The notes under the pieces are model-generated. The model saw only the letters and a list, made by a program, of their open reading frames with translations, was not told where the DNA came from and made no database searches. Below, piece after piece: positions 1 through 51,929 of a DNA stretch of 64,000 nucleotides. Where the stretch lies: contig JAMYGW020000001.1 in NCBI GenBank assembly GCA_025617375.2, positions 2,790,001 through 2,854,000 on the forward strand, given 5' to 3'. How positions within the stretch are numbered: the first letter of the stretch is position 1; every line of letters starts with the position of its first letter. Made by a program: the position numbers and the translations under genes. Source of the stretch: Acarospora socialis (Eukaryota > Ascomycota > Lecanoromycetes > Acarosporales > Acarosporaceae).

Positions 1-1093
1 AATTTCAGATTTGTTGATGTTTTAGCAAGTCTTCTGCTGTGCCTTCACTGGTTGTGAGCACTATACTAGCTTTGAATTGTGAAATAGCAACTGTGGAAAC
101 CAGCAAATTGTCTATTTTTGCTGTTTTAAGTGCATTGTTGATTTTGTTGCGCATGTCTATGGCATTGATAGTAGTTGTGGGTATTTTTGACTTTATAACT
201 AGATGTCTTTCTCTGAAAGTAATGGGTTTATCCACTACTTTTGACTTTGGTGCTTTTTTTTGAACAGTTGTCCATGAGTTTTGAGCATTTTGATCTTTGC
301 TGCTTGCAATTGATGCATATGTTGCTGATTTCACTGTTTTTGTTAATGTTGACTGTTCAAAGCTGGTTTTGTTTGTCTGTACAAAGTTGATAGGGTTTGT
401 TTTGTTTGTCTGAAAGACAAATGCTGGTTTCTCTGTGGTTTCTGACTTTGTCTTAGACATTGTGTGAAGAATTTTGTCTAGTTTGATGTTGACTTCATCT
501 TTGAAGCTGTCTAGTTGTTGTTGAACATCTAGTTTCTGATGAAATGCTTCATCTGACTGTTTGAGTGAGTCTAGATTTGCATTTTGTCTTGCTTGATTCA
601 GTGTCTTGATGCTAGTTTCTAGTTCTTGTTGAACTATGGGGTTTGTGAATTGCTGAATAGCTTGCTTGAGGTAGTTTCTGGCTTGTTGAAGTAGTTTGTC
701 ACCATTTTGGCTTTTTGAGTGTAGGTTTGTGCAGTTTGCATGATGAGTTTCATGCTGATTTGGTTCTTCATCAGAAGAAATAGCTTCTAGCACTGGACTG
801 ACAATGGCTCTTCTCTTTTTAGACTTTAGAATAGTCTTTTGAGAAGATTTGATGGTGATTTGTGATCTCAACAGGTCTGGTGAACTCATAAAGAGTTGTG
901 GAAGTGCTGTTTTTGGTGATTTTTGTTGTTTTGTAGGTGTTTTTGAGTTTTCTAGGTTGAAATCTTGCATGAAGTTGCTGGAATTCAGTGCAAAAGTCAT
1001 GATATGAGGTGTTTTTGGGGTCCATCATGTTCAAATTCAAAATTCTATTCAAATTCAGGTCCAGAAGGTCTATGTCTAGCAGTAATTATCTAG
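1..1093 (-). mobile_element. Tad1-like LINE copy 1 (5' part only; runs off the window)
   Basis: This is the 5' end of a non-LTR retrotransposon on the minus strand, holding the 5' UTR and about the first 330 codons of ORF1 (5-1000). It matches 5789-6881 of copy 2 exactly as far as compared. The ORF1 frame ends at a TGA at 5-7 where copy 3 has TGG. The copy abuts the (TAAA)n tail of copy 2 at about 1093/1094 with nothing between. The rest of the element lies to the left of the window. Confidence 0.9.
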
Positions 1094-1284
1094 TTTATTT
1101 ATTTATTCTTCATTCTATGCATGCAGCTATAAAAGCTATGGCAGTTAATAGACATATAGTGAAAGATGTAGACACAAAACAAAACTCAAAATCTTGTACA
1201 TGTGAATAATCAATCTGAATACTTTTTGATCACTTCTGTTCAGTCAACCTGATGCTGATTGTCAACCAATATCTTTCTTCTTTT

Positions 1285-4200
1285 CTAAATCTCATCTTCA
1301 TCCTCAACTTCTTCTAATAACCATTTTCTAGTAGCTACTTTGGTTTTCTTCAAAAACAGCAAAGTAGCTTTGATTCCTTCCTTGGTAGTAAACAGCACCT
1401 TTGCTGTATATGGCAAATTGATGTTTCTGAGCTGATTTTTCAGCTCAGTTTGCTCCTTTTTGTTATATTGACAGGCTGTCAACAAATGCTCTGGGGTTTG
1501 ATCTTTGTTGCATGCACCATTGCATTTCTTGCTATTATAGTCTGGTAATCTATGCAGATATGCTTTGAAATAGCCATGACCTAGTTTCATTTGTGTAAAA
1601 GTAGCAAATGAAAGTCTGTCTGCACTTTTCAGATCTTCTTTGATGTGAAAACTAGGTGTTTGATCAAACTGAGCATAGTATCTTCCTTGGGTTGTCTTTT
1701 TCCAGTGAGTGGTCCAGTTTTCCAGTGCTTTGGCCTTGATTTTGTGTTTGATATAGCTAATAGATGTAAATCTATCAATATCTGGTGAAATTGACTGCTT
1801 TGCACCTGATTTTGCAGCTTCATCTGCTATTTCATTGCCTTTAATGTCCTCATGTCCAGGAACCCAATGAATATGAGGTGTAACTTCATAATCTATGAGT
1901 TTTTGAAGAGTTTCTTGACATTTAATAGCTAGCTGCTGTCCAGATCCTTGGTTTGTAGTTTGAATTCTTTGTATAGCTGCTTGATTGTCTGAAAAGATCC
2001 ATATGTCTTTGATTCTTTGATATTTCATGATTTCTTTGAGACTTAACTTCAAAGACTGTGAAATTCCAAACAATTCAGCATCATAGACTTCCATGGTGGT
2101 TCCTAGATTTCAAGATTGTTGATGTATAATATCTTTATACATGTAGCAAAGACCTGCACCTAGATTCTCATCTAGTTTTGACCCATCTGTGTACAAAACA
2201 GCATTTTTAAACTTGGTTTCCTTAGAGAAAAGTGTTTCTAGTCTCTTTAGATGTTCCAAAGTAGCTAGTTTTTTGTCAGATTTGCTGATTTGAATGTCTA
2301 TGTTTGGTGAAACACTCCAAGGTGCACAGCATAACTCATTTTGAGTTGAAACCTCCAAATTTAGTGTTTCTGGTAGATATTTGCAAATGCTATATAGCAC
2401 TTTAATCAACTGAGTTGGGTGTTTCTTCTTAATGAGAGAGTTTGGATGTTGATTCCAGTCAAGATAATGATTTTCATCAATATCACATCCAGTTCCAAGT
2501 CCTGGTGGGTAGGTGTATGGAGTTCTTTGTCTAATTGGATGATTTTCTGACAAAGTAGCTATTCTTAAAGCATATAGCTCTGTTTTTTGATCAAGTCTAA
2601 ATCTGAGTGGTAATATAGCTGATTCTAGCTCCATAGCAGCTGATGGTGAAGACCTAAATGCACCTAGAATTTTTCTAGTTGCTGAATTTTGAAGTTTTTG
2701 AAACAGCTTTTCAAAATTCTTTTGTTGTTTCCACCATACTGGGCTTCCATAGTCACTTATAGATGTGATGCAGGCTGTGTACAGCTGTTTTCCAGCTGAT
2801 GTTGATAAACCCCATTCAGAATTCATCAGTCTATGCAGTAAATGCAATGTTCTAGTTGCAGAAGCTATTTTCTTTTGCACATGTGTCTTAAAAGACATTT
2901 TAGTGTCAAACCAAACACCTAGCCAGCGTACAACTTTAGAAGGATGTATAACAGTGTTATTTGGTAGTTTTACTGTTGATATAGCTTGATTTCCTTTCTG
3001 AAAATGGATGAGTTCTGACTTGCTGTCATCAAATATAACTGCATTTTCTTCAGCCCATTGAAATGCAGTTTTTGTGACTGATTCTAGTGTTTTGCTGTTG
3101 TCTGCAGCTGTTTTTCCTTCCACAATAATAGCCACATCATCAATATAGCTTGGTAGCTTTAGTTGAGTGTGTTTATTGTTGATTTTTGTGAATAGAAATC
3201 GCATATAGATCAAAAATAGCATTGGTGATATAGGTGATCCTTGTGGAATTCCAGAATTGACACTTTGTGGGTGATTTTTTTCACCATCAAAAGCTAGAGC
3301 AATTGTTCTATTTGTAAGAAAGCATTGCACCCATTTTAGTACAGTTTGTGGTAAATGTAGTCTTTTCATGACTTTTAGCAGTTGATTTAAAGACACATAG
3401 TTAAATGCACCCTTAACATCCAAGAATAAAGCTGTCAAGACTTTGTTGTTGTTGATTGCTTGTTGAATGTCATGTGTTAAACACATAGCTGCATCCACAG
3501 CTGATCTTTGCTTTCTACCGCCCATTTGCTCATGATATAGCAAGTTTGTGGTTTCAGCCCAATAGGAAAGTCTTGTTGCCATTATCTTTTCAGATATTTT
3601 GCTCAAGCAATTTAGTAGAGTGATTGGTCTATATGCTTTGGGTATTGAATAGTCTGCTTTGCCTTCTTTTCTTAGAATTGCACCAGTTCCTTGACGCCAG
3701 CATACTGGATGATAACCTTGATTTATTAAAACTGAATAAACAGTGTGAAATAACTCAGATATAGCTTGATATGCATGTTGAATTATCAAAAAGGACAATC
3801 CATCTGGCCCAGGTGCTTTTTTTGTTGATGAAGTCATAATAGCTTGTTTTATTTCCTTAGAAATGACTGAAAACCATGGTTTTGTGAGACTATTATCACA
3901 TTCTAGCTCAACTGAACTTGTTTGAGGTGGTTTTGGAAACATAGCTTCAAGAAACAAGTCACATTTGTCTTTAAATGTGAGTCCTACTTTGTTTTCATGC
4001 TTTATAGGAGGTGTTTTCTCTATTTTTCGTGGTTTAGTGTAATGATATGCTGTGAAAACATCTTTTCCAGCTGCACCTTGCAGAAAAGTAGTCCATGAGG
4101 TATGTTTGGCTTTCTGAATTGCGTGAAAGTATCTATTTCTTGCATTTCTGAATTGATTCCAGTTTTCTTGTGATTTGTGATGTTTCCAGTATCTTCTAAA

Positions 4201-5202
4201 ACCACTCATTTCAGTTCTAAGTACTGATAATGATTCAGACCACCATACTTTGGCTTTTGAACAAGGTTTTCTCTTTGGTATATGCTGATCTGCTGCATTT
4301 GCTATCAGATTTCTGAGAGAAATAGCCATTTCTTCTAGATTTTGATCTGATAGATGTTGCATTAAGCTTTGAATTTGAACACTGGTTTGTACTGAGTTTA
4401 TTTGCAGAGTTTCTGCAAATTTAACCCAGTCTGCTTTGTCTATATTGTATGATGCACTCAGTGGACTTTCAACCCATTCAGACTCATTTGCAGTTATTTG
4501 AAACTGAATAACTTCATGGTCTGATCCAGACTCCATGTCTTGATTTACTTGCCAATTTCTGATGAAATTGCAAAGTAAGGGTGTTGCAAAAGTCAAATCA
4601 ATCACTGATGTGGCATTTCCTGAGTGATGTGTATAGGTGTTTATGTCTGGTGTATTTAATAGCTCACAGTTGTGAATTTTCAGCCAGTTTATCAAAGAAG
4701 TAGCTCTTATAGAGTTTTCTATTGATGAATTTCACCATGCATGATGTGCATTAAAATCCCCACAGATAGTAGCTCTTTGTGGTAGTTGAATTGCTGTTAA
4801 ACATCTGTCTATGGTCCATTGATCATTGTTGATTTGCTGTGACTTTTCATTGTATATGTTAAGTAACAGTATACTAGAAATTCCATTTGCTGAAATACTG
4901 AGTATTTGCAAATCTGAGTCTTTTGACAAGTCAGGTCTTGGTATACACACTAAATCTTGTCTAGTTTTAGACACGAAGGTCATAGTTCTAGGTCTAATAT
5001 CTAGATTTGATGTGGGTATCAAACTAGTAAAAGATGGATGTGAAATAGTAGTTTTGTTGTCTCTTGCAACCCATGATTCTTGAAACAAAACTATATCTGC
5101 TGTGTTGACAGCTGAATTCAAGCATGAGTGCATGACATTCATAGATCTTGCGCAGTTGTGTTGTAGAATGGTGATTTGTGATGAATTTGTTGTGTTATTC
5201 AT
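1285..5202 (-). pseudogene. LINE copy 2 ORF2: endonuclease-RT-RNase H, two TGA stops
   Basis: This is the retrotransposition polyprotein. From the N-terminus it has an AP-type endonuclease (QHNCARSMNV near the start, CGDFNAHHAW at the end), a reverse transcriptase (APGPDG, GIPQGSPISP and the catalytic YIDD box) and an RNase H domain (LYTDGSK, AELFGI, SDNQAA, HWVPGH...NEIADEAA). The frame is about 1305 codons long and carries TGA at 4732-4734 and 2110-2112 in place of conserved Trp (context HAW-stop-NSS and QQS-stop-NLG). Its start overlaps the ORF1 stop as ATGA. The protein is identical to copy 3 except in the endonuclease region, where several residues differ. Confidence 0.88.
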
Positions 5203-6788
5203 GACATTTTCATAGATAGTGGATCTGCTGTTGAAGAAATAGACTGTAGTGCTTTGAAAACACTGCATTCTGCACTATTTGCTTGATGTTTCTCATCACA
5301 ATTGCTGCATTTATAGACTATATGTGCGCAAGTGATTCCTTTTGACTGTGTGGGACAAAGAAAACAGTCATGTTCTCTAGTATTGTGGTTTTCCGCACAG
5401 AATTGACATGTGTCTTGATTTTTACATACTTTTTGAGTATGTTCAAACTTTTGACACTTTCTGCATTGATCTGTTGGTTTGCAAGTGTTGTAGACTGCAG
5501 TTCTAACTGATGTTTCAGCAATTATCAGTTTGTTTCTGAGTGCTTTTTGAGCTTCTTGTTCTGATTTGACTGTCAAGACAATAGATGCATGCTGTTTTTC
5601 CTGTCTGGCTTCTTCTGAAGTAAGTCAGCGTGGTAAAATAGCTAGTTTGATATCTTTGTTGAAGGTTTCTACTTCATCTTTGACTAGTTGCATGTCTTCT
5701 TTGCCATTGAAAATAGCTGTGGGAATTCCATGTGCTACTATTTTGTACCACTTTTCATCCTTTTTGATTTCTATGAATTCAGATGATGAATTTCAGATTT
5801 GTTGATGTTTTAGCAAGTCTTCTGCTGTGCCTTCACTGGTTGTGAGCACTATACTAGCTTTGAATTGTGAAATAGCAACTGTGGAAACCAGCAAATTGTC
5901 TATTTTTGCTGTTTTAAGTGCATTGTTGATTTTGTTGCGCATGTCTATGGCATTGATAGTAGTTGTGGGTATTTTTGACTTTATAACTAGATGTCTTTCT
6001 CTGAAAGTAATGGGTTTATCCACTACTTTTGACTTTGGTGCTTTTTTTTGAACAGTTGTCCATGAGTTTTGAGCATTTTGATCTTTGCTGCTTGCAATTG
6101 ATGCATATGTTGCTGATTTCACTGTTTTTGTTAATGTTGACTGTTCAAAGCTGGTTTTGTTTGTCTGTACAAAGTTGATAGGGTTTGTTTTGTTTGTCTG
6201 AAAGACAAATGCTGGTTTCTCTGTGGTTTCTGACTTTGTCTTAGACATTGTGTGAAGAATTTTGTCTAGTTTGATGTTGACTTCATCTTTGAAGCTGTCT
6301 AGTTGTTGTTGAACATCTAGTTTCTGATGAAATGCTTCATCTGACTGTTTGAGTGAGTCTAGATTTGCATTTTGTCTTGCTTGATTCAGTGTCTTGATGC
6401 TAGTTTCTAGTTCTTGTTGAACTATGGGGTTTGTGAATTGCTGAATAGCTTGCTTGAGGTAGTTTCTGGCTTGTTGAAGTAGTTTGTCACCATTTTGGCT
6501 TTTTGAGTGTAGGTTTGTGCAGTTTGCATGATGAGTTTCATGCTGATTTGGTTCTTCATCAGAAGAAATAGCTTCTAGCACTGGACTGACAATGGCTCTT
6601 CTCTTTTTAGACTTTAGAATAGTCTTTTGAGAAGATTTGATGGTGATTTGTGATCTCAACAGGTCTGGTGAACTCATAAAGAGTTGTGGAAGTGCTGTTT
6701 TTGGTGATTTTTGTTGTTTTGTAGGTGTTTTTGAGTTTTCTAGGTTGAAATCTTGCATGAAGTTGCTGGAATTCAGTGCAAAAGTCAT
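5199..6788 (-). pseudogene. LINE copy 2 ORF1 (gag-like zinc-knuckle protein), two TGA stops
   Basis: This frame is the same length (530 codons) as the intact ORF1 of copy 3, but Trp codons have become TGA at 5793-5795 (the WNSSSEF site) and near 5624 (the RWLTSEE site). In the zinc knuckles several glycines have changed to Glu or Asp (for example KFEHTQKVC for KFGHTQKVC), which fits further G-to-A changes. It would encode the RNA-binding partner of ORF2. The broken state implies that only other copies could move the family. Confidence 0.88.
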
Positions 6789-7072
6789 GATATGAGGTGT
6801 TTTTGGGGTCCATCATGTTCAAATTCAAAATTCTATTCAAATTCAGGTCCAGAAGGTCTATGTCTAGCAGTAATTATCTAGTTTATTTATTTATTCTTCA
6901 TTCTATGCATGCAGCTATAAAAGCTATGGCAGTTAATAGACATATAGTGAAAGATGTAGACACAAAACAAAACTCAAAATCTTGTACATGTGAATAATCA
7001 ATCTGAATACTTTTTGATCACTTCTGTTCAGTCAACCTGATGCTGATTGTCAACCAATATCTTTCTTCTTTT

Positions 7073-10000
7073 CTAAATCTCATCTTCATCCTCAACTTCT
7101 TCTAATAACCATTTTCTAGTAGCTACTTTGGTTTTCTTCAAAAACAGCAAAGTAGCTTTGATTCCTTCCTTGGTAGTAAACAGCACCTTTGCTGTATATG
7201 GCAAATTGATGTTTCTGAGCTGATTTTTCAGCTCAGTTTGCTCCTTTTTGTTATATTGACAGGCTGTCAACAAATGCTCTGGGGTTTGATCTTTGTTGCA
7301 TGCACCATTGCATTTCTTGCTATTATAGTCTGGTAATCTATGCAGATATGCTTTGAAATAGCCATGACCTAGTTTCATTTGTGTAAAAGTAGCAAATGAA
7401 AGTCTGTCTGCACTTTTCAGATCTTCTTTGATGTGAAAACTAGGTGTTTGATCAAACTGAGCATAGTATCTTCCTTGGGTTGTCTTTTTCCAGTGAGTGG
7501 TCCAGTTTTCCAGTGCTTTGGCCTTGATTTTGTGTTTGATATAGCTAATAGATGTAAATCTATCAATATCTGGTGAAATTGACTGCTTTGCACCTGATTT
7601 TGCAGCTTCATCTGCTATTTCATTGCCTTTAATGTCCTCATGTCCAGGAACCCAATGAATATGAGGTGTAACTTCATAATCTATGAGTTTTTGAAGAGTT
7701 TCTTGACATTTAATAGCTAGCTGCTGTCCAGATCCTTGGTTTGTAGTTTGAATTCTTTGTATAGCTGCTTGATTGTCTGAAAAGATCCATATGTCTTTGA
7801 TTCTTTGATATTTCATGATTTCTTTGAGACTTAACTTCAAAGACTGTGAAATTCCAAACAATTCAGCATCATAGACTTCCATGGTGGTTCCTAGATTTCA
7901 AGATTGTTGATGTATAATATCTTTATACATGTAGCAAAGACCTGCACCTAGATTCTCATCTAGTTTTGACCCATCTGTGTACAAAACAGCATTTTTAAAC
8001 TTGGTTTCCTTAGAGAAAAGTGTTTCTAGTCTCTTTAGATGTTCCAAAGTAGCTAGTTTTTTGTCAGATTTGCTGATTTGAATGTCTATGTTTGGTGAAA
8101 CACTCCAAGGTGCACAGCATAACTCATTTTGAGTTGAAACCTCCAAATTTAGTGTTTCTGGTAGATATTTGCAAATGCTATATAGCACTTTAATCAACTG
8201 AGTTGGGTGTTTCTTCTTAATGAGAGAGTTTGGATGTTGATTCCAGTCAAGATAATGATTTTCATCAATATCACATCCAGTTCCAAGTCCTGGTGGGTAG
8301 GTGTATGGAGTTCTTTGTCTAATTGGATGATTTTCTGACAAAGTAGCTATTCTTAAAGCATATAGCTCTGTTTTTTGATCAAGTCTAAATCTGAGTGGTA
8401 ATATAGCTGATTCTAGCTCCATAGCAGCTGATGGTGAAGACCTAAATGCACCTAGAATTTTTCTAGTTGCTGAATTTTGAAGTTTTTGAAACAGCTTTTC
8501 AAAATTCTTTTGTTGTTTCCACCATACTGGGCTTCCATAGTCACTTATAGATGTGATGCAGGCTGTGTACAGCTGTTTTCCAGCTGATGTTGATAAACCC
8601 CATTCAGAATTCATCAGTCTATGCAGTAAATGCAATGTTCTAGTTGCAGAAGCTATTTTCTTTTGCACATGTGTCTTAAAAGACATTTTAGTGTCAAACC
8701 AAACACCTAGCCAGCGTACAACTTTAGAAGGATGTATAACAGTGTTATTTGGTAGTTTTACTGTTGATATAGCTTGATTTCCTTTCTGAAAATGGATGAG
8801 TTCTGACTTGCTGTCATCAAATATAACTGCATTTTCTTCAGCCCATTGAAATGCAGTTTTTGTGACTGATTCTAGTGTTTTGCTGTTGTCTGCAGCTGTT
8901 TTTCCTTCCACAATAATAGCCACATCATCAATATAGCTTGGTAGCTTTAGTTGAGTGTGTTTATTGTTGATTTTTGTGAATAGAAATCGCATATAGATCA
9001 AAAATAGCATTGGTGATATAGGTGATCCTTGTGGAATTCCAGAATTGACACTTTGTGGGTGATTTTTTTCACCATCAAAAGCTAGAGCAATTGTTCTATT
9101 TGTAAGAAAGCATTGCACCCATTTTAGTACAGTTTGTGGTAAATGTAGTCTTTTCATGACTTTTAGCAGTTGATTTAAAGACACATAGTTAAATGCACCC
9201 TTAACATCCAAGAATAAAGCTGTCAAGACTTTGTTGTTGTTGATTGCTTGTTGAATGTCATGTGTTAAACACATAGCTGCATCCACAGCTGATCTTTGCT
9301 TTCTACCGCCCATTTGCTCATGATATAGCAAGTTTGTGGTTTCAGCCCAATAGGAAAGTCTTGTTGCCATTATCTTTTCAGATATTTTGCTCAAGCAATT
9401 TAGTAGAGTGATTGGTCTATATGCTTTGGGTATTGAATAGTCTGCTTTGCCTTCTTTTCTTAGAATTGCACCAGTTCCTTGACGCCAGCATACTGGATGA
9501 TAACCTTGATTTATTAAAACTGAATAAACAGTGTGAAATAACTCAGATATAGCTTGATATGCATGTTGAATTATCAAAAAGGACAATCCATCTGGCCCAG
9601 GTGCTTTTTTTGTTGATGAAGTCATAATAGCTTGTTTTATTTCCTTAGAAATGACTGAAAACCATGGTTTTGTGAGACTATTATCACATTCTAGCTCAAC
9701 TGAACTTGTTTGAGGTGGTTTTGGAAACATAGCTTCAAGAAACAAGTCACATTTGTCTTTAAATGTGAGTCCTACTTTGTTTTCATGCTTTATAGGAGGT
9801 GTTTTCTCTATTTTTCGTGGTTTAGTGTAATGATATGCTGTGAAAACATCTTTTCCAGCTGCACCTTGCAGAAAAGTAGTCCATGAGGTATGTTTGGCTT
9901 TCTGAATTGCGTGAAAGTATCTATTTCTTGCATTTCTGAATTGATTCCAGTTTTCTTGTGATTTGTGATGTTTCCAGTATCTTCTAAAACCACTCATTTC

Positions 10001-10990
10001 AGTTCTAAGTACTGATAATGATTCAGACCACCATACTTTGGCTTTTGAACAAGGTTTTCTCTTTGGTATATGCTGATCTGCTGCATTTGCTATCAGATTT
10101 CTGAGAGAAATAGCCATTTCTTCTAGATTTTGATCTGATAGATGTTGCATTAAGCTTTGAATTTGAACACTGGTTTGTACTGAGTTTATTTGCAGAGTTT
10201 CTGCAAATTTAACCCAGTCTGCTTTGTCTATATTGTATGATGCACTCAGTGGACTTTCAACCCATTCAGACTCATTTGCAGTTATTTGAAACTGAATAAC
10301 TTCATGGTCTGATCCAGACTCCATGTCTTGATTTACTTGCCAATTTCTGATGAAATTGCAAAGTAAGGGTGTTGCAAAAGTCAAATCAATCACTGATGTG
10401 GCATTTCCTGAGTGATGTGTATAGGTGTTTATGTCTGGTGTATTTAATAGCTCACAGTTGTGAATTTTCAGCCAGTTTATCAAAGAAGTAGCTCTTATAG
10501 AGTTTTCTATTGATGAATTTCACCATGCATGATGTGCATTAAAATCCCCACAGATAGTAGCTCTTTGTGGTAGTTGAATTGCTGTTAAACATCTGTCTAT
10601 GGTCCATTGATCATTGTTGATTTGCTGTGACTTTTCATTGTATATGTTAAGTAACAGTATACTAGAAATTCCATTTGCTGAAATACTGAGTATTTGCAAA
10701 TCTGAGTCTTTTGACAAGTCAGGTCTTGGTATACACACTAAATCTTGTTTAGTTTTAGACACAAATGCCATAGTTCTAGGTCTAATATCTAGATTAGATG
10801 TGGGTATCAAACTAGTAAAAGATGAATGTGAAATAGTGGTTTTGTTGTCTCTTGCAACCCATGGTTCTTGAAGAAGAACTATGTCTGCAGTTTTTGTAGC
10901 TGAATTCAGACATGAGTACATGACATTCATAGATCTTGCGCAGTTGTGTTGTAGAATGGTGATTTGTGATGAATTTGTTGTGTTATTCAT
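7073..10990 (-). pseudogene. LINE copy 3 ORF2: endonuclease-RT-RNase H, two TGA stops
   Basis: It has the same architecture as in copy 2: endonuclease (10990 to about 10520), RT (about 10483-7898) with the YIDD active site, and RNase H (about 7980-7073) with TDGSK, AELFG and DNQAA motifs. TGA at 10520-10522 and 7898-7900 replaces Trp, at the same two sites as in copy 2. Because this region of copies 2 and 3 is otherwise identical, the stops were most likely inherited from one ancestor rather than arising twice. Endonuclease residues (LLQEPWVARD) look more ancestral here than in copy 2 (LFQESWVARD). Confidence 0.88.
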
Positions 10991-12576
10991 GACATTTTCA
11001 TAGATAGTGGATCTGCTGTTGAAGAAATAGGCTGTAGTGCTTTGAAAACACTGCATTCTGCACTATTTGCTTGATGTTTCTCACCACAATTGCTGCATTT
11101 ATAGACTATATGTGCACAAGTGGTTCCTTTTGACTGTGTGGGACAAAGGAAACAGCCATGTTCTCTAGTATTGTGGTTTCCCGCACAGAATTGACATGTG
11201 TCTTGATTTTTGCATACTTTTTGAGTATGTCCAAACTTTTGACACTTTCTGCATTGATCTGTTGGTTTGCAAGTGTTGTAGACTGCAGTTCTAACTGATG
11301 TTCCAGCAATTATCAGTCTGTTTCTGAGTGCTTTTTGAGCTTCTTGTTCTGATTTGACTGTCAAAACAATAGATGCATGCTGTTTTTCCTGTCTGGCTTC
11401 TTCTGAAGTAAGCCAGCGTGGTAAAATAGCTAGTTTGATATCTTTGTTGAAGATTTCTACTTCATCTTTGACTAGTTGCATGTCTTCTTTGCCGTTGAAA
11501 ATAGCTGTGGGAATTCCATGTGCTACTATTTTGTACCACTTTTCATCCTTTTTGATTTCTATGAATTCAGATGATGAATTCCAGATTTGTTGATGTTTTA
11601 GCAAGTCTTCTGCTGTGCCTTCACTGGTTGTGAGCACTATACTAGCTTTGAATTGTGAAATAGCAACTGTGGAAACCAGCAAATTGTCTATTTTTGCTGT
11701 TTTAAGTGTGTTGTTGATTTTGTTGCGCATGTCTATGGCATTGATAGTAGTTGTGGGTGTTTTTGACTTTATAACTAGACGTCTTTCTCTGAAAGTAATG
11801 GGTTTATCCACTACTTTTGACTTTGGTGCTTTTTTTTGAACAGTTGTCCATGAGTTTTGAGCATTTTGATCTTTGCTGCTTGCAATTGATGCATATGTTG
11901 CTGATTTCACTGTTTTTGTTGATGTTGGCTGTCCAAAGCTGGTTTTGTTTGTCTGTACAAAGTTGATAGGGTTTGTTTTGTTTGTCTGAAAGACAAATGC
12001 TGGTTTCTCTGTGGTTTCTGACTTTGTTTTAGACATTGTGTGAAGAATTTTGTCTAGTTTGATGTTGACTTCATCTTTGAAGCTGTCTAGTTGTTGTTGA
12101 ACATCTAGTTTCTGATGAAATGCTTCATCTGACTGTTTGAGTGAGTTTAGATTTGCATTTTGTCTTGCTTGATTCAGTGTCTTGATGCTAGTTTCTAGTT
12201 CTTGTTGAACTATGGGGTTTGTGAATTGCTGAATAGCTTGCTTGAGGTAGTTTCTGGCTTGTTGAAGTAGTTTGTCACCATTTTGACTTTTTGGGTGTAG
12301 GTTTGTGCAGTTTGCATGATGAGTTTCATGCTGATTTGATTCTTCATCAGAAGAAATAGCTTCTAGCACTGGACTGACAATGGCTCTTCTCTTTTTAGAC
12401 TTTAGAATAGTCTTTTGAGAAGGTTTCATGGTGATTTGTGATCCCAACAGGTCTGGTGAACTCATAAAGAGTTGTGGAAGTGCTGTTTTTGGTGATTTTT
12501 GTTGTTTTGTAGGTGTTTTTGGGTTTTCTAGGTTGAAATCTTGCATGAAGTTGCTAGAATCCAGTGCAAAAGTCAT
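10987..12576 (-). CDS. LINE copy 3 ORF1, gag-like zinc-knuckle protein, intact
   Basis: This is a 529-residue open frame. The first third is Gln/Lys/Ser-rich with a predicted coiled segment (about residues 100-180), followed by an RNA-binding-like middle. The C-terminus (about residues 430-515) carries three zinc knuckles: CRKCQKFGHTQKVC, CQFCAGNH...HGC and CSNCGEKHQANSAEC. ORF1 of Tad/CgT1-type LINEs binds the RNA template. The stop (10987-10989) overlaps the ORF2 ATG (10988-10990) as ATGA, suggesting stop-and-restart translation of ORF2. It is the only LINE frame in the window without a stop, so it may still be translated. Confidence 0.85.
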   Translation of the reverse strand: MTFALDSSNFMQDFNLENPKTPTKQQKSPKTALPQLFMSSPDLLGSQITMKPSQKTILKSKKRRAIVSPVLEAISSDEESNQHETHHANCTNLHPKSQNGDKLLQQARNYLKQAIQQFTNPIVQQELETSIKTLNQARQNANLNSLKQSDEAFHQKLDVQQQLDSFKDEVNIKLDKILHTMSKTKSETTEKPAFVFQTNKTNPINFVQTNKTSFGQPTSTKTVKSATYASIASSKDQNAQNSWTTVQKKAPKSKVVDKPITFRERRLVIKSKTPTTTINAIDMRNKINNTLKTAKIDNLLVSTVAISQFKASIVLTTSEGTAEDLLKHQQIWNSSSEFIEIKKDEKWYKIVAHGIPTAIFNGKEDMQLVKDEVEIFNKDIKLAILPRWLTSEEARQEKQHASIVLTVKSEQEAQKALRNRLIIAGTSVRTAVYNTCKPTDQCRKCQKFGHTQKVCKNQDTCQFCAGNHNTREHGCFLCPTQSKGTTCAHIVYKCSNCGEKHQANSAECSVFKALQPISSTADPLSMKMS

Positions 12577-12669
12577 GATATGAGGTGTTTTTGGGGTCCG
12601 TCCTGTCCAAATCCAAAATCCTATTCAAATCCAGGTCCAGAAGGTCTATGTCTAGCAGTAATTATCTAG

Positions 12670-13904
12670 TTTTTAAAGGTAAAAACTAGATTTTCCTGAG
12701 GTTCTAGATTATAGAAGCTTTGGATCCTTATTTCATCTAGAATAGGCTGTACCCAATTGCCTAATCCAGATGTTGCTTAATATCCCAATTCACCTAGAGT
12801 AGATAAACTCTACAATAGGCTTTTACCAGCTCTACTATAAGCAAGACTATACTATAAGTCACTCAACCACTAGGTCTTGGGGCAGATGCGTTTAGGGCAA
12901 GATTTTCACGTGGAGCCTCGTATTTATATCCCAACTACTCAGACGACGTTGTTTGCCAGTCTGAGCTTTTACCAGCAGGTAGGGCTAGAAAATAGCTACC
13001 TGCTTATATCCTTCACTAGGTCTTTGTGAGATGCTTCTAGTGTAGGGTATGTCTTCACTGGTAGGTTCTTTCTGCATGCAAAACGCTAATCAATTGACAG
13101 AAGAAATGCTCAAATTCCAGCTAAATTCGTCAAGAAATGGCTATTTTGCGGCTAGTTTTTGCGGAAACTGCGTGCAGTTGCTGGAATTGAGCAATTTGGT
13201 GTAATTCAGCCTGTAACGCTTAAAAATTTGACCTGAAACGCTGGTTTTTGGGCGAAAATAGCTGAAAAGTAGTCGATTTTGTTGATAAAATAGCTTGTTT
13301 TGATGGTGGAGCTATGTAGGTATGTTGTATAATGCGTGAATTGATGTGGCTTGGTGTGTATAGGCTGGAATTGCTGTGTAGTTGGCGTAAAAGTGGTGTT
13401 TTTGGTGTTTTCTTGGTTGTTTTGGTGTTTTTGGTGTTTTGGTGTGAGTGAGGCTTAGTTGAGGTATCTGATGATGCTTGGTGTGCAGAAATTCTGCCAA
13501 GCAAGCTAGGAAAATTAAGCAAAAATTTGTGAACTTCAAAAACTAGATACTAAGGGGTACAACTAAACAGTTCAACAACTTTGTGAGCAATAAAGATATC
13601 AAAAAGCAGTAATAGTATGAATTTTAGAAGAGATCAAGGTGAAGAAAACTGTTGATTCAGAATTTTTGAAGATGCATTGGTTGTGGCGATGTTGATGTCC
13701 GAAATGTTGTTTTGGTTTTTTGGGAGGAGGTATGTGAAAAATTTTGGGAGAATGGTAATTGAGGTCCCTCACCACCAGTATTGATGATGAAGATAAGCTG
13801 TTTTGAGGGTTTATGAAAGTGAATGAGATGAAGAATTTGCTCTATTCAGAATTTTGATAGCTGGTTTGGTTGTTGACAAAGTCTTTGACAAACTTCATAT
13901 TTAG
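12670..13904. other. Flank of LINE copy 3, no host gene seen
   Basis: This is 1.2 kb of moderately AT-rich sequence upstream (minus-strand sense) of the LINE. It still contains CC, GG and CG dinucleotides, so it has not been mutated like the block to its right. Notable parts are a 9-bp inverted repeat at the LINE border and a run of GGTGTTTT-like units at 13395-13446. On the minus strand the latter gives short Thr/Lys-rich open frames that I do not believe in. It may be the rest of the LINE 5' UTR with an internal promoter, or an older repeat into which the LINE inserted. Confidence 0.5.
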
Positions 13905-14101
13905 AAACAAATCCCCACAATCAGGTTGACTGTTCAGAAGTGATCAATAAGCAATTAGAATTATCAGAATAAATCTGTAATTCATATATTATACATATGA
14001 ATTGTCATAATAAATCTGCATATTCAACAAATGTTTTACTAAGCTGCTATAACTACTATAGTTGCATGTGATGTATGAAGAATAAATAAATAAATAAATA
14101 A
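13905..14101 (+). mobile_element. LINE-like 3' end in opposite orientation
   Basis: Sequence at about 13917-13945 (ATCAGGTTGACTG, CAGAAGTGATCAA) and 14060-14101 (ATGAAGAATAAATAAATAAA) matches the sense-strand 3' UTR and tail of the LINE array, with divergence between. It ends in a (TAAA)n tail. It is either a 5'-truncated LINE insertion of a diverged subfamily or a short element that borrows the LINE tail. The hypermutated block starts inside it. Confidence 0.65.
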
Positions 14102-16600
14102 GAAATGCAGCATTGAATATTAATTTGAAATAATTGATAGATATTTTCAATTCTTCTTTATTAATCAGCAAAATTTTCTTTCTTTAGATGTGCAGTAATG
14201 TCTGAGATAAGTATATTGATTTTGTTGATCTGTTTCTTCTTCTTTTTCTTGTTGAGTTAAAATAATATGAATATATTAGTTTTGTCAATCTGTTTTTTCT
14301 TTTTCTTTTTGTTAGATTGAGATGATGAGTTTAATGTATTGATAAAGTGAATTTTCTTATAAATAAATGTGTTCAATGTTGTGTTAAATGAGTTTAATGC
14401 TTGCAATTTTACTATATTTACAAAAATAATCTTAACATTCTTTCTGCACTGTTCTGATGATGTATTTTTAGAATAAAAGTTAGTATTTTATCTCTTCATA
14501 ACTAACTTCATTTACATAACAACTAATTAAACTCTTTAAAATATATTTAAGCAGTATCTAATAACTTTCTTCAATCTTTTGATCTGATAATGTTATATTA
14601 TTGTGTTATAAAAAAAACACAAGTACATTGATGACTATATAATAGTTTGAAAAAAACATTTGTGAAAAACTGAAGATTCAGAAAGAAAAGATCAGAGATT
14701 TTGTGAAAGTGAAAAAGTAAATTTGACTAAGTACTTATAGTATGATTTGTTTACATAAATGTTGTTGTTTGTTGTGAGTGAATCTGTAAATAACTTCAAA
14801 ACAAATTACACAATTATTCAGAAATTTTATCTCATGATCATTCTATCTCAAACAACTACATATTTGATTTTAAAACACATTACATACTGTTTGTAAAGTG
14901 TAGTAGAAGAAATCACATTAGTATCAATTTCATTTTTTAATATAGACATTATAAAAGTAGAGAAACTCACATTCAAGTTATGTATTTAGCATCATGATAT
15001 CAAAATAAAAACTCAAGTCAAAAAAGAAAGTCAAGCTGATAACAGAGATAACTGAAGAAATTAAAAAGAAATCTTTAATAAAAACTGTTTTTAAAAAAAA
15101 ATGAAGATATATAATGCAGAGATGACATCATGACTAAAGAGCAAAGAAGTTACAGTTAAATATAATATCTTTCAAGAAGATGACTAAATTCTTAATAATT
15201 CTTCTTCATTTAAATCAATTGCTATAAGAAAAGAATTTAGTGAGTTATATAGTTTTTACAATCATATTATATTATAATGCTCAATTTTAATACTCTCTGA
15301 CAAAATTCTACTATATAGTAATAACAATGTTGACAAAAGCTGCACTCTTTCAAGATTAATTAAGCAGCATTCTCTTTTCTGATTAGAGAAATAATTACTC
15401 AGTATAATTAAAATTTAAAGTGACATTAATCAGCAATTACAAGTTTGCAGAAGACAAGTGAAGTATTTTTTTGTACTTATTATGAAAGTATAAATTTTCA
15501 TATATCAAAATCTCTCTTCTATAACTTATATGTTATATAGTTATGAAGTTACATAAGAAAAAGAATCTGATTATGACAGCAAAGTTGTGAAAGACAAAGA
15601 TGATGTTTAATACTTTTCAGCTCTATTAAGAAAATGAACTTCTTATTAGTTAATGTACTTTAGCTTTGTATTAGATATGTGATGTAATGAACAGTTTATA
15701 ACACTCATATATAATGTTTACAAAGCATGCTGCAATCACATAGTCAAACAAAAAGTGCTTTGTGAAACTATCATTAAATAGTTTTGCATTAGTAACATCT
15801 ATCAATCAAATTCTACTTAGTTATCATGTGCTAATTAATTTTAATTTAGTTTGAGCTGTCAAGAAAAATTCAGTTTGACTTTGTCTGAAATCTGATTCTG
15901 TTCAGAGTTGAGCTGAGTTGCAAAGTTGAATTCAGTGAGTTAAACTGAATATCAAAATCTGAGCTTGACTCAGTTCAGTAACCACTCTAAATATCATTCT
16001 TCTTTCACTTAACACTTTGTGCATATAACAGTAACACTTATTTTACAAGTTTAATGAGTTAATTACTAAATATAAAAGATATCTGTATAGATATATAGAC
16101 AGAATCTTTCAAAGATAGATTTTTAGCAATTATATACTTCATAAACACAATACAATTCTAATATTTTTGCATTGAAAACTCTTTAGAGAATAGTTTTAAT
16201 ATTAATAGATATATATTATATTACTTTATTATTGAATAATCTATGAAGTTTTGTACTTCATACTGTTATAAATTTATTTTAGTAATTTATTTTTGATAAT
16301 AGATAACAAGACTTACATTTACTCTCTGTTTTATTTTATTATTACTTTGTAAATTTATATGTCTAAAGTAATCTTTTTGTGTACAGAGATTCACAAATCT
16401 TATGTTTTGAGTAATAAAAATTCTTTGTAAATGTGACATGATCTAAACCTAAAAACATACTAACACATAAGATGTCACAAGTCTATCATTGTCTTGAGTT
16501 AGATCTCTCTAAAGAGTACTGTTCTAAACTTACAGAGATCTTTGTGTTACTTGTAAGTTGTTGAATAAATCTCAATTGTGACATACAAGAGTGCTATGTA
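13926..16600. other. Hypermutated AT-rich block without CC/GG/CG
   Basis: In these 2675 bases I find one CC at about 15982 (within ACCAC), one at about 16447 (AACCT), no GG and no CG. CA/TG, AC/GT, TC/GA and GC steps stay frequent (about one GC per 60 bases). Neutral low GC would give dozens of CC/GG. No open frame of meaning is present. It ends abruptly at 16601, 23 bases beyond the Sec62 stop. It looks like dead repeat DNA reshaped by context-specific C-to-T mutation on both strands. Small imperfect palindromes (for example around 15930-15950) are unremarkable at this base composition. Confidence 0.85.
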
Positions 16601-16623
16601 CGCCTTCAACGGTAACATTACAC

Positions 16624-17976
16624 TCAATCCTCCTCGACCTCTTCAATCCTAGGAGTGAGATCTCTTCGCTTTGTGTGGGAAACCGCCGCATCAGACCCCG
16701 TTGTATTTGTGGCCAAAGAGATGCCAGTGGCCACGGGTGCAGAGGACATTGGTTCGGCATTGTTGTCGTTGGAGGTCGAAGAATTGACCTGTTCGTTGGC
16801 CGCAGCGTCACCACGACCTTTCTTCGCTCTCTTTGTCTTTTTCTTTTTCTCCTGGAGTTCAGGTTAGTCATCTTTGGAAGGTTTCATCCGGGGAGGTATG
16901 GTACCTCTTGCCAACCCCACACCGGCCGGAAGCTGTCAAAAAATCCCACGTCTTCGAACAGATTTGGGTATAACCACAAACCCGGTGGTACGGTAAACAT
17001 GGTGGCGCAGAATAATATCAGCCGGAAAATAGCCATGACGAAGAACAGCCCAATCAGACCCAACATGCCCATACTCAGATACCACACCCCCAACCGAAGC
17101 TTCACAGGCCACAAAGGAAACATCACGACGGCCATGATGGCCGCCAGCGCACCACCAGCGTACACTTTCTGTCTCCACTGCGGACCTTCGTATAACCAAA
17201 CGTAATGCAGGCCATCGCGGATCTCCTGTTGTTGCTCAATGCGCACCGTCCAGACACCTTTGATGCGTTTCTGAGGTTTGGCGTGTGCGTGACCCTCGTG
17301 TGGATCAATCTTAGAAACCCTGAGTGCCAGGAGAGATAGCGGAAGGAGCTTGAAAGTCTCCACTGCGGCAGAAGCGGACGTAACGGAGGGAAGGAGGGAG
17401 GATGCCTTGGAGGATGCCTTTTGGTAAGCGGGGGATTGGAGCGCTCTGAGGGCGCGTTTAACTGGCAGCGAGAACGATCTGAGTAATTACCCGAGGAGCG
17501 CAAGGTTCAACCTTCCTGTAGATGTACTAACCTTTAAACATATCTTTCCTCTGTCCGTTGAGTATACAGGTTCTGCTTTTCAGATCCTGACCCCGGAGCC
17601 ACTTGGCCAAGGCCACAGCACTCCGGTCTGGTGCAGCAGGGTTGATGGGGGCCTGCTGGTTTGCCTGGCCCTGCTCCTGCTGTACAGCGTGCTGTTGTTC
17701 TGACTGGTGTGACTGGTGTTGCTGTTGCTGTTGCTGTTGTTGCTGCTGGGCGAGCTTTTGCTGATGCTGCTGTAAAGCCTGGGCTTTCAGCTTCTCCACG
17801 TATTGCTCCACTGAAAGACCGTGTTTGGCAGCATCAGCGGTGAGTTGCTGGCGCTGCCAGTTGGCAAATTCTTGTGGTGTCATGCCCTTCTTTTGAGCTT
17901 CCGCTGCTAATTGCTGCTGCATGGCTGCGATCTGCTGCGGAGTAGGTTTCTGCGTGGGTGGCGAAGGCGTCGCCAT
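16624..17976 (-). CDS. sec62: Translocation protein Sec62
   Basis: This is a subunit of the Sec62/63 complex that aids post-translational protein import through the Sec61 channel of the ER. There are three exons: 17532-17976, 16905-17461 and 16624-16851 (introns 70 and 53 bp), 409 residues. The N-terminal half has a Gln-rich stretch with a CAG-type tract (around 17715-17750). Then come the family signature ALAKWLRGQDLKSRTCILNG and the core GVWTVRIEQQQ, WLYEGPQWRQK, and two membrane segments separated by a short loop (about residues 245-320). The C-terminus is Lys-rich (KKKKTKRAKKG), as usual for cytosolic Sec62 tails. The Met at 17976 fits the conserved start; a longer in-frame start at 18096 looks like leader. 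Its stop lies only 23 bases from the mutated block, leaving almost no normal 3' UTR. Confidence 0.93.
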
Positions 17977-19080
17977 TGTGAAAAAACACGATGCGAAGGA
18001 TGCAGGCTCGTAGTGTGAAGCGACTGGAAGGGCGTGGGTCACTGCGATGAAGGTAAACGTGAACTTAGGTAGAGGACACGAATTCCCAAGCAACAAGCGA
18101 AGATTAAGAGTAGTTACTGTACCACGGAAGCTACCTAATTTGAAAGGCTTATGTAAGATAAGATCAGACGATCGTCACTGGTGACTGGGCTGCTCATGTA
18201 CGAAACAAAAGTACCCTACATCCATGTGGTACCAGTCCCAAAACACTTAGATATATGAGCTTGTCTTGGGTTGGGCCATTATGAGGAGAGCTTCCTTCCT
18301 GCTGCCTGGAATCTCTGTGTTTGTTACAAGTTCATAAACAGCGTCCAGCCGGCAATGTGGCAACGTCTTCATTCGTTCTCAGTCGCTCCAAGTCAAACCG
18401 TCTGGCAATGTTGTTTTATCTGTTACTAGGACTTACTTCGTCACTGCACATCGCTGTACAGGGACTGGTTCTGTGTCAGCCAGCTGTTTGCGGCAACTTT
18501 CGTCAGCTGGTCATTGCTGGGTGCGCTTCTCCTATTGAGTTTGATGCGCATCGCAGAGGCGTGGAGGCAGAAAGTGAGGCGAGACTGAGGACTGGGCGGA
18601 AACGTCTCTGCACTGTCCACTCCACCTCTAAAGATCTTTTAAGAGTTGATGGATATTTGACCATAGAAACTTGATCGATGTGATTGCGCTGGGAACACTG
18701 ACGAGGCTAGAGCTCTATTCCTGCTTTCAATAGTGTCTCGATATGGCCCATGTAAGAGCTTCTATAAGGCCCACCGAGACTGTACATGAGACTCGAGAAT
18801 TCAAACATGGCATGCCTTACTACTAACGTTTCTTTACTCATAGAGAACCGTCCAGGAAAGCTGCGTTCGGCATGGTACCGGACCAATGCACTTTCAGACA
18901 AAGAGACATCGTACTTGATCCGGGCACAGAGGCTGTTAACAAGGTCTTGCAACTGTGATGGACATGGACTCGTGTCAGCCAAACTTATCCATTCCACACT
19001 AACTTCGAGCCACATTCAAAGGAAGTGATAGTTGCTTGCGAGGTCGGACTTGCGCATGACATACAGGTGCAAAGTGCAAC
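17977..19080. other. Intergenic, Sec62 promoter and upstream of HExxH gene
   Basis: This is about 1.1 kb between divergent genes. Short open frames exist (for example 18321-18674 plus and 18707-19015 minus, 117 and 102 codons). They show no family motif, and I would not annotate them. No RNA gene is seen. Confidence 0.5.
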
Positions 19081-20403
19081 ATGAACCCAGAAGACACGTG
19101 GGACGAGCACCCTGACCTGTGGATGTTCACCAAGACGGAGCTGCAACAACTCGGGATGCTCGAATTGCCTGATGCGCAACGTGCTAGTCTGACCAATGCG
19201 ATTCATCCAATCTTCCTTCCAGCAAGTTGGGTCGACGTGCGCGTCGCCCACATCACCCAACTCAGACCCGTCTTGCGCTTAGCATCGCATTATATCACCG
19301 ATCCTCATCTCATGCCTTTCTGGCATGCGCAAATGTTTGGCCAGCGAATCGAAATTCCGCGTAGTGTCGTGGTTGGGCCGATCTATGGGCACACCCTCTC
19401 AATTTTTCAACGCAACTATGATTCTGTCACTCGGAGCTACGCCCTCTCCAGATTGGACCTTACACGGACTCGGGATGCCTTGGTCAGTCTTGCAGGATTT
19501 ATCACTTTCACAATTAACAGAGAGCCCAGCACGAGCGGCGCCATCCTTACAACAACGCGCAACTTTGTATCTGCTTCGCCCACTAGCTTTCCTGGGACGG
19601 CGTCGCTCATCGAGATTGATCGCAAGTATTTGGACGCTTATGCGAGACCTGACTTGACAATTTCACAAAGGCTGCGTTTACAGTTCTTCCTTGCGGTATC
19701 AATTGTGCATGAGGTGGGTCATTGTCGAACCCTATCACTTGTGCAAGGCATAAAGCCTAGTACAGTGTTGCCTCTCACACTTGACTCGGGCAAGTGTTGA
19801 TTCCTTTCATAGCTTAGTCACGCGGTTGAACATGCGGTCACTCCCATGCTGCCGCGATCCCCAAACCGACACGGACCAACGAATTGGGAACCTCGTCACC
19901 ATCCTGACGAGCCGTTCTTCGAGCGGGACCGGCTTGCTGAATGCGGCAACGCATGGGAAAATACCGTCCTCGGTGGACTGCAAAACCTTTTCGCTTCGAC
20001 AGTAGCACGCTATGGTCTCGTGACGCGGAAGTGGCCCACTATAACAGACCCGGCACCGGGTTTCGAACTCCCAATAAGGGGGAAGCCGAAGAAATGGACG
20101 ACATTGTATTTTGTGCCCATGTCCCATATACAGAAGCTATTCACCGACCAATTTTGGTCACCCGAGGGCATCGGCAGGTATGGTGCCGCAGCAGTAAAGT
20201 CGAAGCATACCCATGGTTGGAGAGCTTTCAACGAAGGCGAGGTCACCAGTGCTCTCGATGAAGGCATCAGCTGGGATGACTCAAGCAGAGAAAGGGAGAC
20301 TGATGCTGTTGGGAAGATCATACAACCACCGGTCCAAGATCCAGCTGAGGGCGCGTCGCTTGATCCTTTCGAGTTCATCGACTGGACTGCTGGGGAAGGG
20401 TGA
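19081..20403 (+). CDS. Uncharacterised HExxH protein (zincin-like), paralogue A
   Basis: There are two exons, 19081-19740 and 19813-20403, joined over a 72-bp intron (donor GTGCAA) that falls just after the HEVGH motif; product 416 residues. It is a clear paralogue of the gene at 20945-22213: both share IHPxF, LASxxxxxPxLxPxW, a HExxH helix (HEVGH here), then EPFF-x-D/R...AExGxAWExxxLGG, KPPKKWxTxYxxPM and FTxxFW. HExxH followed about 45 residues on by a glutamate in AExGxAWE is the expected zinc-ligand layout of a gluzincin-like metallopeptidase, but I know no characterised member. There is no signal peptide or membrane segment, so it is probably intracellular. The exact intron ends are inferred. 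Confidence 0.75.
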
Positions 20404-20944: not shown

Positions 20945-22213
20945 TCAGATAACGTCCATCGGGCCATCCTCCTCATCACTTTCATCATCTGCATACATAT
21001 CCTCCAATCCCGGACTCAACCTGACCGGCTGGCCCGGTCGCACAATCCCCTCGTCGTCCGGCCAGCGGTCTCTGCTTGAATCACCGGCAGGGAAACCATC
21101 ATCACCACCGACCCATTCCCAGTTCCTCAATCTCAGACCGAGCGTCTTCTCAAACCGCAAAGCTGTGACGCCGAAGACCTTGACTTGCTTGTTCCAGAAG
21201 TCTTGTGTGAACAAGCCCTGCACGAACGGCATAGGGATTGTATACATGGTTGACCACTTCTTAGGCGGTTTGCGCGAGAGGGGAATCGTGGCCGACCCCG
21301 CTTGGTTCGGACGGATGACCATGTATTTCTCGTCGAGGTCGGGCCACTTTTCGATGCACATCCCAAACCTACTGTCAAAGGCATTTAGAAATGGGAAGAT
21401 CCGGCCACCTAGAATAACCGATTCCCAGGCGTGACCGACCTCGGCACGGCGGTGGTCGTAGAAGAACGGTTCAAAATCTTCTATAGGAGGGTCTGGGGGA
21501 GACACTCGGGCGTTACGAGCCGCGTGGGCGAATTCGTGGGCAAGAGTGTTAGCGAGCAAGAAGTTTGTCCGGAGCCTCTGTGGAGTGGACAGAGTCGTTG
21601 TTGGGTCAAGGATGGCAAGGAAGGCTTTTGACAGTCGGATGATGGAGCCTGTGCCAACGAAAGGTTGCAGTGCTGGCGTAGGGGTGCGGACGCAAATGGC
21701 CCAAGCTCCTGTGCTCGACCCTTCCTCAAATTCGTAGCGGGTGGTGCGAGCAGCGTGGAGCATAGCTTTTCGGATCAGTTGCAGTTGATTTGTTTCAAGA
21801 GGACCTGGTTGTTGGAGGAAACAGTAACAGGGAGCGTTGAATTTCTGCGAGGTGCAAGGCAGATAATGGTAGGTGCTAAAGATTAGACCGTTCCAATATG
21901 GCAGTAGAGTCGGCTCATCGAGGAACTTGGACGCTAAACGCAGTGCTGGATGCAAATAATCATATTGCTGCAGATCGGAAAAGAGTGGATGAATCGGATC
22001 GATTAGGTCTCCTAAATGAGCATTGGGTAGGTGAATAACCTGATTGGCGTGTAACTCCGGAAGTCGGAACCGTTTGAGATAGAAATCGCCTTCGTGCCAT
22101 GGGCCAGGCGGTGGGGAAGGTCTGTCCAGAGGATCATCGGTACGAGGTCGCTTCAGCGCTGGTGAGCTGTCTCCCTCTTCAACTTCGTCGATTTGGCGTT
22201 TCCCCGTCGCCAT
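20945..22213 (-). CDS. Uncharacterised HExxH protein (zincin-like), paralogue B
   Basis: This is a single-exon gene of 422 residues. The N-terminus (MATGKRQIDEVEEGDSS, KRPR) looks like a nuclear-localisation type basic stretch. The body matches paralogue A throughout: IDPIHPLFSD, HPALRLASKF, LLPYWNG, HEFAH at about residue 231, EPFFYD, AEVGHAWESVILGG, KPPKKWSTMYTIPMPF and FTQDFW. The tail is acidic (DDESDEEDG). The zinc-binding pair HEFAH plus the Glu in AEVGHAWE is kept, so catalysis is plausible; substrate unknown. It faces A tail-to-tail, and only A has the intron beside HExxH, so one copy gained or lost it after duplication. SprT-like or other gluzincin relatives could be considered, but I see no further signature. 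Confidence 0.8.
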   Translation of the reverse strand: MATGKRQIDEVEEGDSSPALKRPRTDDPLDRPSPPPGPWHEGDFYLKRFRLPELHANQVIHLPNAHLGDLIDPIHPLFSDLQQYDYLHPALRLASKFLDEPTLLPYWNGLIFSTYHYLPCTSQKFNAPCYCFLQQPGPLETNQLQLIRKAMLHAARTTRYEFEEGSSTGAWAICVRTPTPALQPFVGTGSIIRLSKAFLAILDPTTTLSTPQRLRTNFLLANTLAHEFAHAARNARVSPPDPPIEDFEPFFYDHRRAEVGHAWESVILGGRIFPFLNAFDSRFGMCIEKWPDLDEKYMVIRPNQAGSATIPLSRKPPKKWSTMYTIPMPFVQGLFTQDFWNKQVKVFGVTALRFEKTLGLRLRNWEWVGGDDGFPAGDSSRDRWPDDEGIVRPGQPVRLSPGLEDMYADDESDEEDGPMDVI

Positions 22214-23102
22214 TATTGGGACGATTCCAGTCTAGATAAGGATGAGTGTGGGTGTAGCACTAAGACTGTCGGCATCTGGAGCGACACAAGCAATGACGTC
22301 TGAGAATGTTGCATCCTTCTGGATCAAAGAGCCCTAGTTTCTACAGAAAGGCACCTTGACTTGGCTCATACATTGTTCAGCTTCTTTGATTCGCCCAGGA
22401 TCGGAGCTGTTGCATGCGCTTTGTTCACAGACAACTCATGCATATCCGGACCAACTTCAAAGTCTCCGGAGCTATAACCGGATTTGGTCATGGTCTCAAC
22501 GAACGCTTCGTCCGAACCGCTTCAAAACGAGTAAAGCCAGGATCGTTATCCGCATTACTTCTGCACCGCGGCATTGTAATGACGCGCAACCGCAACAGTT
22601 AACGCCACCCCTCTGGTCGACGACCAAATCTCAAGTGGGTTGTAGTTTTATAGTAAGACGATAAACGCTCATATAAAATCGCTCACTTAGTTACCCCTTG
22701 GGGTATTCTTGAGAAGAAGAAATTGTACTCCGTACAGAACTGGTGTGCTTGCGGCCCTAAGTCCCAGCATTCCAGTGATGCATGCGAAACGCGTAACCTG
22801 CTTTCGGCTATGACAACGTGTGTATAGTTAGTATGATGGACGTAAATTTGATGAATTTGGCGTTAGGTTCAGGGACTGGTGCGTTACTGTCAGAAGAGAC
22901 ACCCTAAAGGCAACCATAGATGCTCAAAGCGTACCTCAAGGACAGGAATTTCCGTTGAGAGCGCGGTATTTTATCCAGATGTCGAAACTGCAAGGCAACT
23001 CGAGAGGATATATCCGCAGCAATCTACAGTGTGTCATGAACTATGAAGCGCCCTGAGAGGCTCTCTTCAAACCCTCGAAATGCTTGAGTATCATGAATTA
23101 GC
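22214..23102. other. Intergenic, no gene seen
   Basis: These 889 bases lie upstream of paralogue B and downstream of Vps52. The only open frames are short and lack motifs. No tRNA or repeat is recognisable. Confidence 0.5.
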
Positions 23103-50629: not shown

Positions 50630-50656
50630 CAAGGCGAGGGTCATAAATCTTCGCTC
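50630..50656 (+). repeat. Left terminal inverted repeat
   Basis: The 27 bases begin CAAGGCGAGGGTCAT and form a perfect inverted match to the right repeat. They are preceded by the target TA. Confidence 0.93.
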
Positions 50657-51894: not shown

Positions 51895-51929
51895 GATTGA
51901 TATATATTTACATGTGAAACTAGCTAAGC

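Follow-up and report, generated by a model that had tools for sequence, protein, structure and literature searches.

Which mutational process has shaped the transposon array at the start of a 64,000-nucleotide stretch of the genome of the ascomycete Acarospora socialis (GenBank assembly GCA_025617375.2, contig JAMYGW020000001.1, positions 2,790,001 to 2,854,000; the window hereafter)? Positions 1–12672 of the window are occupied by a head-to-tail array of a long interspersed nuclear element (LINE), coded on the minus strand and repeated with a period of 5788 bp. Copy 1 (1–1096) is a 5′ part cut by the window start. It is followed by copy 2 (1097–6884), whose 5′ third (4959–6884) is mutated relative to copy 3 (6885–12672). 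The second open reading frame of the element (ORF2) matches endonuclease, reverse transcriptase and RNase H domains, and the LINE is presumably of the Tad type. The original prediction, made from the letters by eye, was that a process resembling repeat-induced point mutation (RIP) had acted here at CpC instead of the CpA of classical RIP. CpC is indeed preferred and CpA mostly spared, but CpG proved to be a target as well. We thus consider it rather probable that a RIP-like process hits repeated DNA, changing C to T at CpC and CpG (together CpS, S being C or G) and largely sparing CpA and CpT (CpW, W being A or T). Inside the window, this CpS rule is well supported on both DNA strands. The support comes from three signals that agree with each other: the comparison of copies 2 and 3, a block of DNA almost free of CpC and CpG, and the synonymous sites of the LINE.

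Copies 2 and 3 display 100% identity across 4,958 bp followed by about 3% difference in the 5′ third, which makes the array a mosaic. All 60 ungapped differences between them (52 transitions and 8 transversions) fall within 4961/10749 to 6843/12631. Each C/T difference was scored as a C-to-T change in the T-bearing copy, giving 27 transitions at CpC, 11 at CpA, nine at CpT and five at CpG. The dominance of CpC had been estimated at about 25 of roughly 40 transitions and is borne out by this count, while CpA changes are more numerous than the six or so counted by eye. Their rarity is nevertheless clear when rates are computed per available site with copy 3, whose ORF1 frame is open, taken as the less mutated reference. 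In the direction from copy 3 to copy 2 the changes affect 23 of 88 CpC, 3 of 14 CpG, 7 of 350 CpA and 4 of 246 CpT sites (CpS versus CpW: odds ratio 18, p = 2.2e-15). CpA is the far commoner context in the element, as had been noted (49.6% of the C contexts of copy 3 against 12.7% for CpC), and the claimed excess of CpC over its abundance persists after this normalisation. The per-site rate is similar for CpG and CpC; the apparent scarcity of CpG changes is due to the near absence of CpG from the LINE. The reverse direction, with T or A in copy 3, shows a weaker bias of the same sense (CpC 4/66, CpG 2/12, CpA 4/352, CpT 5/249; odds ratio 5.5, p = 0.004). Both copies thus carry changes, as predicted, but most are found in copy 2 (23 at CpC versus 4 in copy 3).

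The edge of the mosaic (4959–5130) behaves differently. It holds six of the eight transversions and its context bias is not significant (p = 0.30). When it is excluded the counts become CpC 20/79, CpG 3/14, CpA 4/324 and CpT 1/221, with an odds ratio of 35 (p = 2.5e-16). These six transversions in about 170 bp of unbiased change may indicate that part of copy 2 came from another parent. They speak for viewing copies 2 and 3 as different LINE subfamilies and the block described below as naturally AT-rich, with no directed mutation involved. This explanation is very improbable: the odds between contexts differ 18- to 35-fold, and natural DNA of about 25% GC retains CC and CG.

The base 3′ to the cytosine decides which sites change and the 5′ neighbour matters less, the changed CpS sites being 7 of 41 after A, 3 of 18 after C, 5 of 17 after G and 11 of 26 after T. 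CCA is the commonest changed triplet (17 of 52 CCA sites), in line with the reported prevalence of CCA-to-TCA changes, but of the CC triplets it is also the most abundant. Changes occur on both strands, again as predicted, although unequally: in copy 2 they affect 15 of 32 CpC sites on the template strand versus 8 of 56 on the coding strand (p = 0.002). Such a skew towards the template, which is the strand of the first complementary DNA (cDNA), is what could result if a cytidine deaminase attacked the single-stranded cDNA of the LINE while reverse transcription is under way. The known AID/APOBEC enzymes read contexts that lie 5′ of the target C, and to our knowledge none exists in fungi. Here it is the 3′ base that sets the context, TCW and CCW sites are barely changed (5/201 and 1/69, respectively), and both strands are stripped in the AT-rich block. 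A deaminase with another context, one of the two routes put forward originally, is therefore disfavoured, and its action on LINE cDNA is hardly credible. Ultraviolet damage at dipyrimidines was ruled out by the same TCW count and by the low rate at CpT (4/246).

The direction of change can be read from the coding sequence. The ORF1 frame of copy 3 (10987–12624, minus strand) runs uninterrupted for 545 codons between two stops. Copy 2 in this frame has five stops, 25 missense and nine synonymous codon differences relative to copy 3. Four of the stops are TGG-to-TGA changes and the fifth is due to a transversion; note that three of the five, including two of the TGG-to-TGA changes, precede the first Met of the frame and may be non-coding. 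At four positions of the Cys/His clusters, copy 2 has Glu or Asp where copy 3 has Gly. The stops and the lost glycines identify copy 2 as the damaged copy at most differing sites. RIP of the CpA type yields TAA and TAG codons while the CpC type yields TGA. ORF2 has two internal stops common to copies 2 and 3, both of them TGA. Reading of TGA as tryptophan was ruled out, since the TGA codons are accompanied by replacements of Gly by Glu/Asp and of Pro by Ser; it is also contradicted by the presence of 50 TGG codons in five host ORFs.

The second signal comes from codon positions at which an exchange of C/T or A/G is silent; there we counted how often C (or G) is kept. In LINE copy 3 it is retained at 5 of 421 CpG (1%), 32 of 251 CpC (13%), 251 of 481 CpA (52%) and 162 of 575 CpT positions (28%). 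The same count in five long host ORFs, defined as stop-to-stop frames that may include introns or non-coding ends, gives retention of 48–64% in every context (CpG 552/1133, CpC 335/699, CpA 519/807, CpT 529/965). The LINE frames still contain 277 CC or GG dinucleotides (a count in which the two ORF frames share 76 bases), of which 167 are required by the amino acid sequence (73 in CCN, 59 in GGN and 35 in TGG codons) and 110 lie elsewhere. The LINE thus seems to have been long exposed to CpS pressure. With its CpG targets nearly gone, only CpC was noticed in the original prediction.

The third signal is a block with 24% GC at 13925–16600, bounded by GG at 13924 and CG at 16601. Its 2,676 bp contain two CC, no GG and no CG, and the first 2,057 bp (13925–15981) contain none of the three. 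One thousand shuffles of the block gave a mean of 77.9 CC plus GG (lowest value 54) and 38.7 CG (lowest value 21). The 644 cytosines of its two strands are followed by A (331), T (311) or C (2) and never by G; CpA, CpT, TpG and ApG are above the expectation from base composition. Natural AT-rich DNA does not look like this: in 30 kb of AT-rich phage sequence (27% GC), stretches free of CC, GG and CG reach 216 bases at most, and each window of 2,057 bases, taken at 100-base steps, has at least 65 CC/GG and at least 12 CG even though GC content falls to 24.9%. Shuffles and phage control together rule out AT-rich composition alone as the cause. We interpret the block as DNA in which the CpS process has run close to saturation. 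A diverged, 5′-truncated 3′ end of the LINE lies on the plus strand at its start (13920–14091; 68% identity over 173 columns) and is followed by an AATA-type tail. Past this LINE 3′ end, no origin of the block was found by blastn or tblastx against the LINE of the window, nor by blastn against a context-converted version of that LINE. Sequencing or base-calling errors would fall on methylated contexts of repeats, and could in principle mimic a loss of CpC and CpG there. They would have to affect nearly every CpC and CpG of 2.7 kb on both strands and yet leave 88 CpC in the part of copy 3 that was compared with copy 2, and the codon usage of the LINE fits a long-term imprint; this is the least credible of the explanations considered. 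The remaining ~47 kb of the window (16601–64000) are genic DNA with about 51% GC, where CC and CG are near their expected frequency, and served as internal control.

The structure of the array gives a relative date for the changes. Copy 1 corresponds to positions 5789–6884 of copy 2 without any difference over 1,096 bp, so that the mutations of copy 2 in this segment are common to both, and the junctions from copy to copy within the array are identical. The CpS changes thus predate a duplication or conversion of the array, an event to which copies 2 and 3 also owe the full identity of their 3′ two thirds. The main rival to a RIP-like process is passive decay, in which stable CpG and CpC methylation of heterochromatic repeats is followed by slow deamination of 5-methylcytosine and no premeiotic mutator is needed. 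Methylation and deamination have been held responsible for the loss of CpG from fungal repeats (PMC4352252). Passive decay would also account for the long-term imprint in the LINE, in which CpG is worst affected, and for segments of the window that lost CpG without losing CpC. However, copy 2 carries 24 CpS changes at 5131–6843, where it differs from copy 3 by two transversions. This looks like a burst and favours, without proving, a rapid process. The near saturation of the AT-rich block also speaks against slow decay, and we know of no case of CpC methylation of such strength. Passive decay is therefore, in our view, unlikely, although it has to be taken seriously.

The RIP-like process that we favour may be pictured as follows. 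Repeated DNA would be or have been the target, C being changed to T before C or G on both strands; the AT-rich block would be former repeat DNA and the repeats would be recognised as such, likely by an active, repeat-sensing defence. The writer is presumably a C5-DNA-methyltransferase of the RID/Masc1 or DIM-2/Masc2 type, its product undergoing the rapid deamination known from RIP. We propose a methyltransferase because C-to-T change directed by the 3′ base, on both strands and in DNA of repeat type, resembles methyltransferase-linked RIP. A restriction to repeats would fit the changed LINE copy and the nearly unchanged host ORFs; in the block a repeat origin is seen for about 170 bp only. The more complete proposal is a RIP-class defence with a methyltransferase reading the 3′ G or C, in a rule that mirrors the CpA/CpT preference of Neurospora and escapes indices built on CpA. 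The LINE would survive this defence by having purged its CpG and much of its synonymous CpC. We regard this proposal as tentative, with nearly even chances of being right.

Several observations weigh against this picture. The evidence base is a single window, in which one LINE family and one block are concerned. For most of the block no repeat origin was recognised, the match to the LINE being confined to its first ~170 bp, and the strand skew of CpC changes in copy 2 also counts among these observations. The LINE is far more depleted in CpG than in CpC (1% versus 13% retention). Array and block are separated by ~1.2 kb of mixed DNA (12673–13919), which has CpG odds of 0.57 and 0.18 but CpC odds of 0.99 and 1.06 in two segments that meet at 13300 and extend to 14000. 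Likewise, synonymous CG is depleted (17/68) and CC is not (35/68) in the ORF of a mariner element. CpG and CpC loss may accordingly be two processes, with CpG loss partly separate or faster. A slight deficit of CpS relative to CpW is seen in the host ORFs too (48% versus 59% kept, p = 1e-10). As to the sequences concerned, the mixed DNA has a short match to the ORF1 region of the LINE (82% over 51 columns). The mariner ORF belongs to a single Tc1/mariner-type DDE element (50626–51960) with perfect 31-bp inverted ends and matches to DDE_3 and to a Tc3-type helix-turn-helix.

The process is not filed as classical RIP because CpA is not its preferred target and the RIP indices of array and block are negative; in its mode of action it resembles RIP, the target being different. 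Values of the composite index are −0.86 in the array, −0.32 in the block and −0.43 in the genes. Classical RIP gives positive indices, with high TpA/ApT and low (CpA+TpG)/(ApC+GpT). Two of the twelve 500-bp windows covering 12001–18000 are slightly positive (0.21 at 12501 and 0.14 at 16001). A screen based on CpA would most likely call array and block untouched. The ratio (CC+GG)/(TC+GA) is 0.38 in the array, 0.01 in the block and 0.83 in the genes, and CG/(TG+CA) is 0.012, 0.000 and 0.436, respectively.

The CpS rule can be compared with described systems. C-to-T change on both strands, DNA of repeat type, sharp edges and damaged transposon ORFs are shared with Neurospora RIP, whose order of preference in N. 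crassa is CpA>CpT>CpG>CpC (PMC5496416), whereas here CpC and CpG stand far above CpA and CpT. In Trichoderma reesei CpG is a main target beside CpA and CpC is least preferred (PMC5496416), so that the CpG target is shared and the CpC preference is not. CpG-type systems are found in Microbotryum (CpG) and in the MATE element of Aspergillus nidulans (CpG plus CpA) (PMC2621366, where TpCpG is named as well), and also in Uncinocarpus reesii, which is placed at the CG-to-TG extreme with Neurospora at the other (PMC4165359). They have the CpG target in common with A. socialis, where CpC is hit too and CpA is spared. CpG loss in repeats is indeed seen here (5/421 in the LINE and no CG in the block) but the loss extends to CpC. 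For Rhizoctonia solani AG8, Table 2 as printed gives one CpC change per 214 bp and one CpG change per 370 bp (PMC4014442). This system is not led by CpA and its table lists CpC above CpG, which counts against the rarity of our case. It differs in being from a basidiomycete, in affecting genes and repeats alike and in being called CpG-biased by its authors. CpA is reported to be less preferred than usual in Monacrosporium haptotylum (Orbiliomycetes), yet the figure legend reports high TpA and low TpG, that is a CpA type, and no claim about CpC was found in the part available (PMC3828140). CpA, CpT and CpG signatures were reported in ten fungal genomes (PMC4352252), and a kingdom-wide survey of 2025 describes a CpA preference shared by RIP-like defences (PMC12543289). 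No CpC-dominant case was found in the available parts of PMC5602860, PMC5555474, PMC4522978, PMC3017866 and PMC7882544. More generally, we found no ascomycete RIP with dominant CpC in the open-access literature as far as its text was available, though an earlier description may exist, for example in Clutterbuck's 2011 survey of filamentous ascomycetes.

The rest of the window has the following features. One ORF matches the eIF5B chains of the PDB and another matches many P450s; in our reading the genes and the LINE point to a filamentous fungus of the Pezizomycotina. The neighbouring ORFs at 19060–19800 (plus strand) and 20945–22231 (minus strand) have opposite orientations and both carry an HExxH-like motif by eye (VHEVGHC and AHEFAHA); they are possibly a diverged pair of metalloprotease-like genes. 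Scans for transfer RNAs and Rfam families found nothing, and no telomere repeats were seen within the 64 kb. A pattern of the LINE reverse transcriptase had no match in viral contigs and 16 in genome contigs, and patterns of ORF1 and of the Tc1/mariner transposase had two and seven matches in viral contigs; no relative was found among them. The LINE junction pattern had no match in either contig collection.

If the CpS process is confirmed, RIP-like mutation can have an inverted target preference, so that an active system may also exist in species that CpA indices class as RIP-negative. With a natural CpS variant one could map which feature of the RID/DIM-2 family recognises the 3′ base. The LINE would moreover offer a case of transposon coding sequence moulded by the mutator acting on it.

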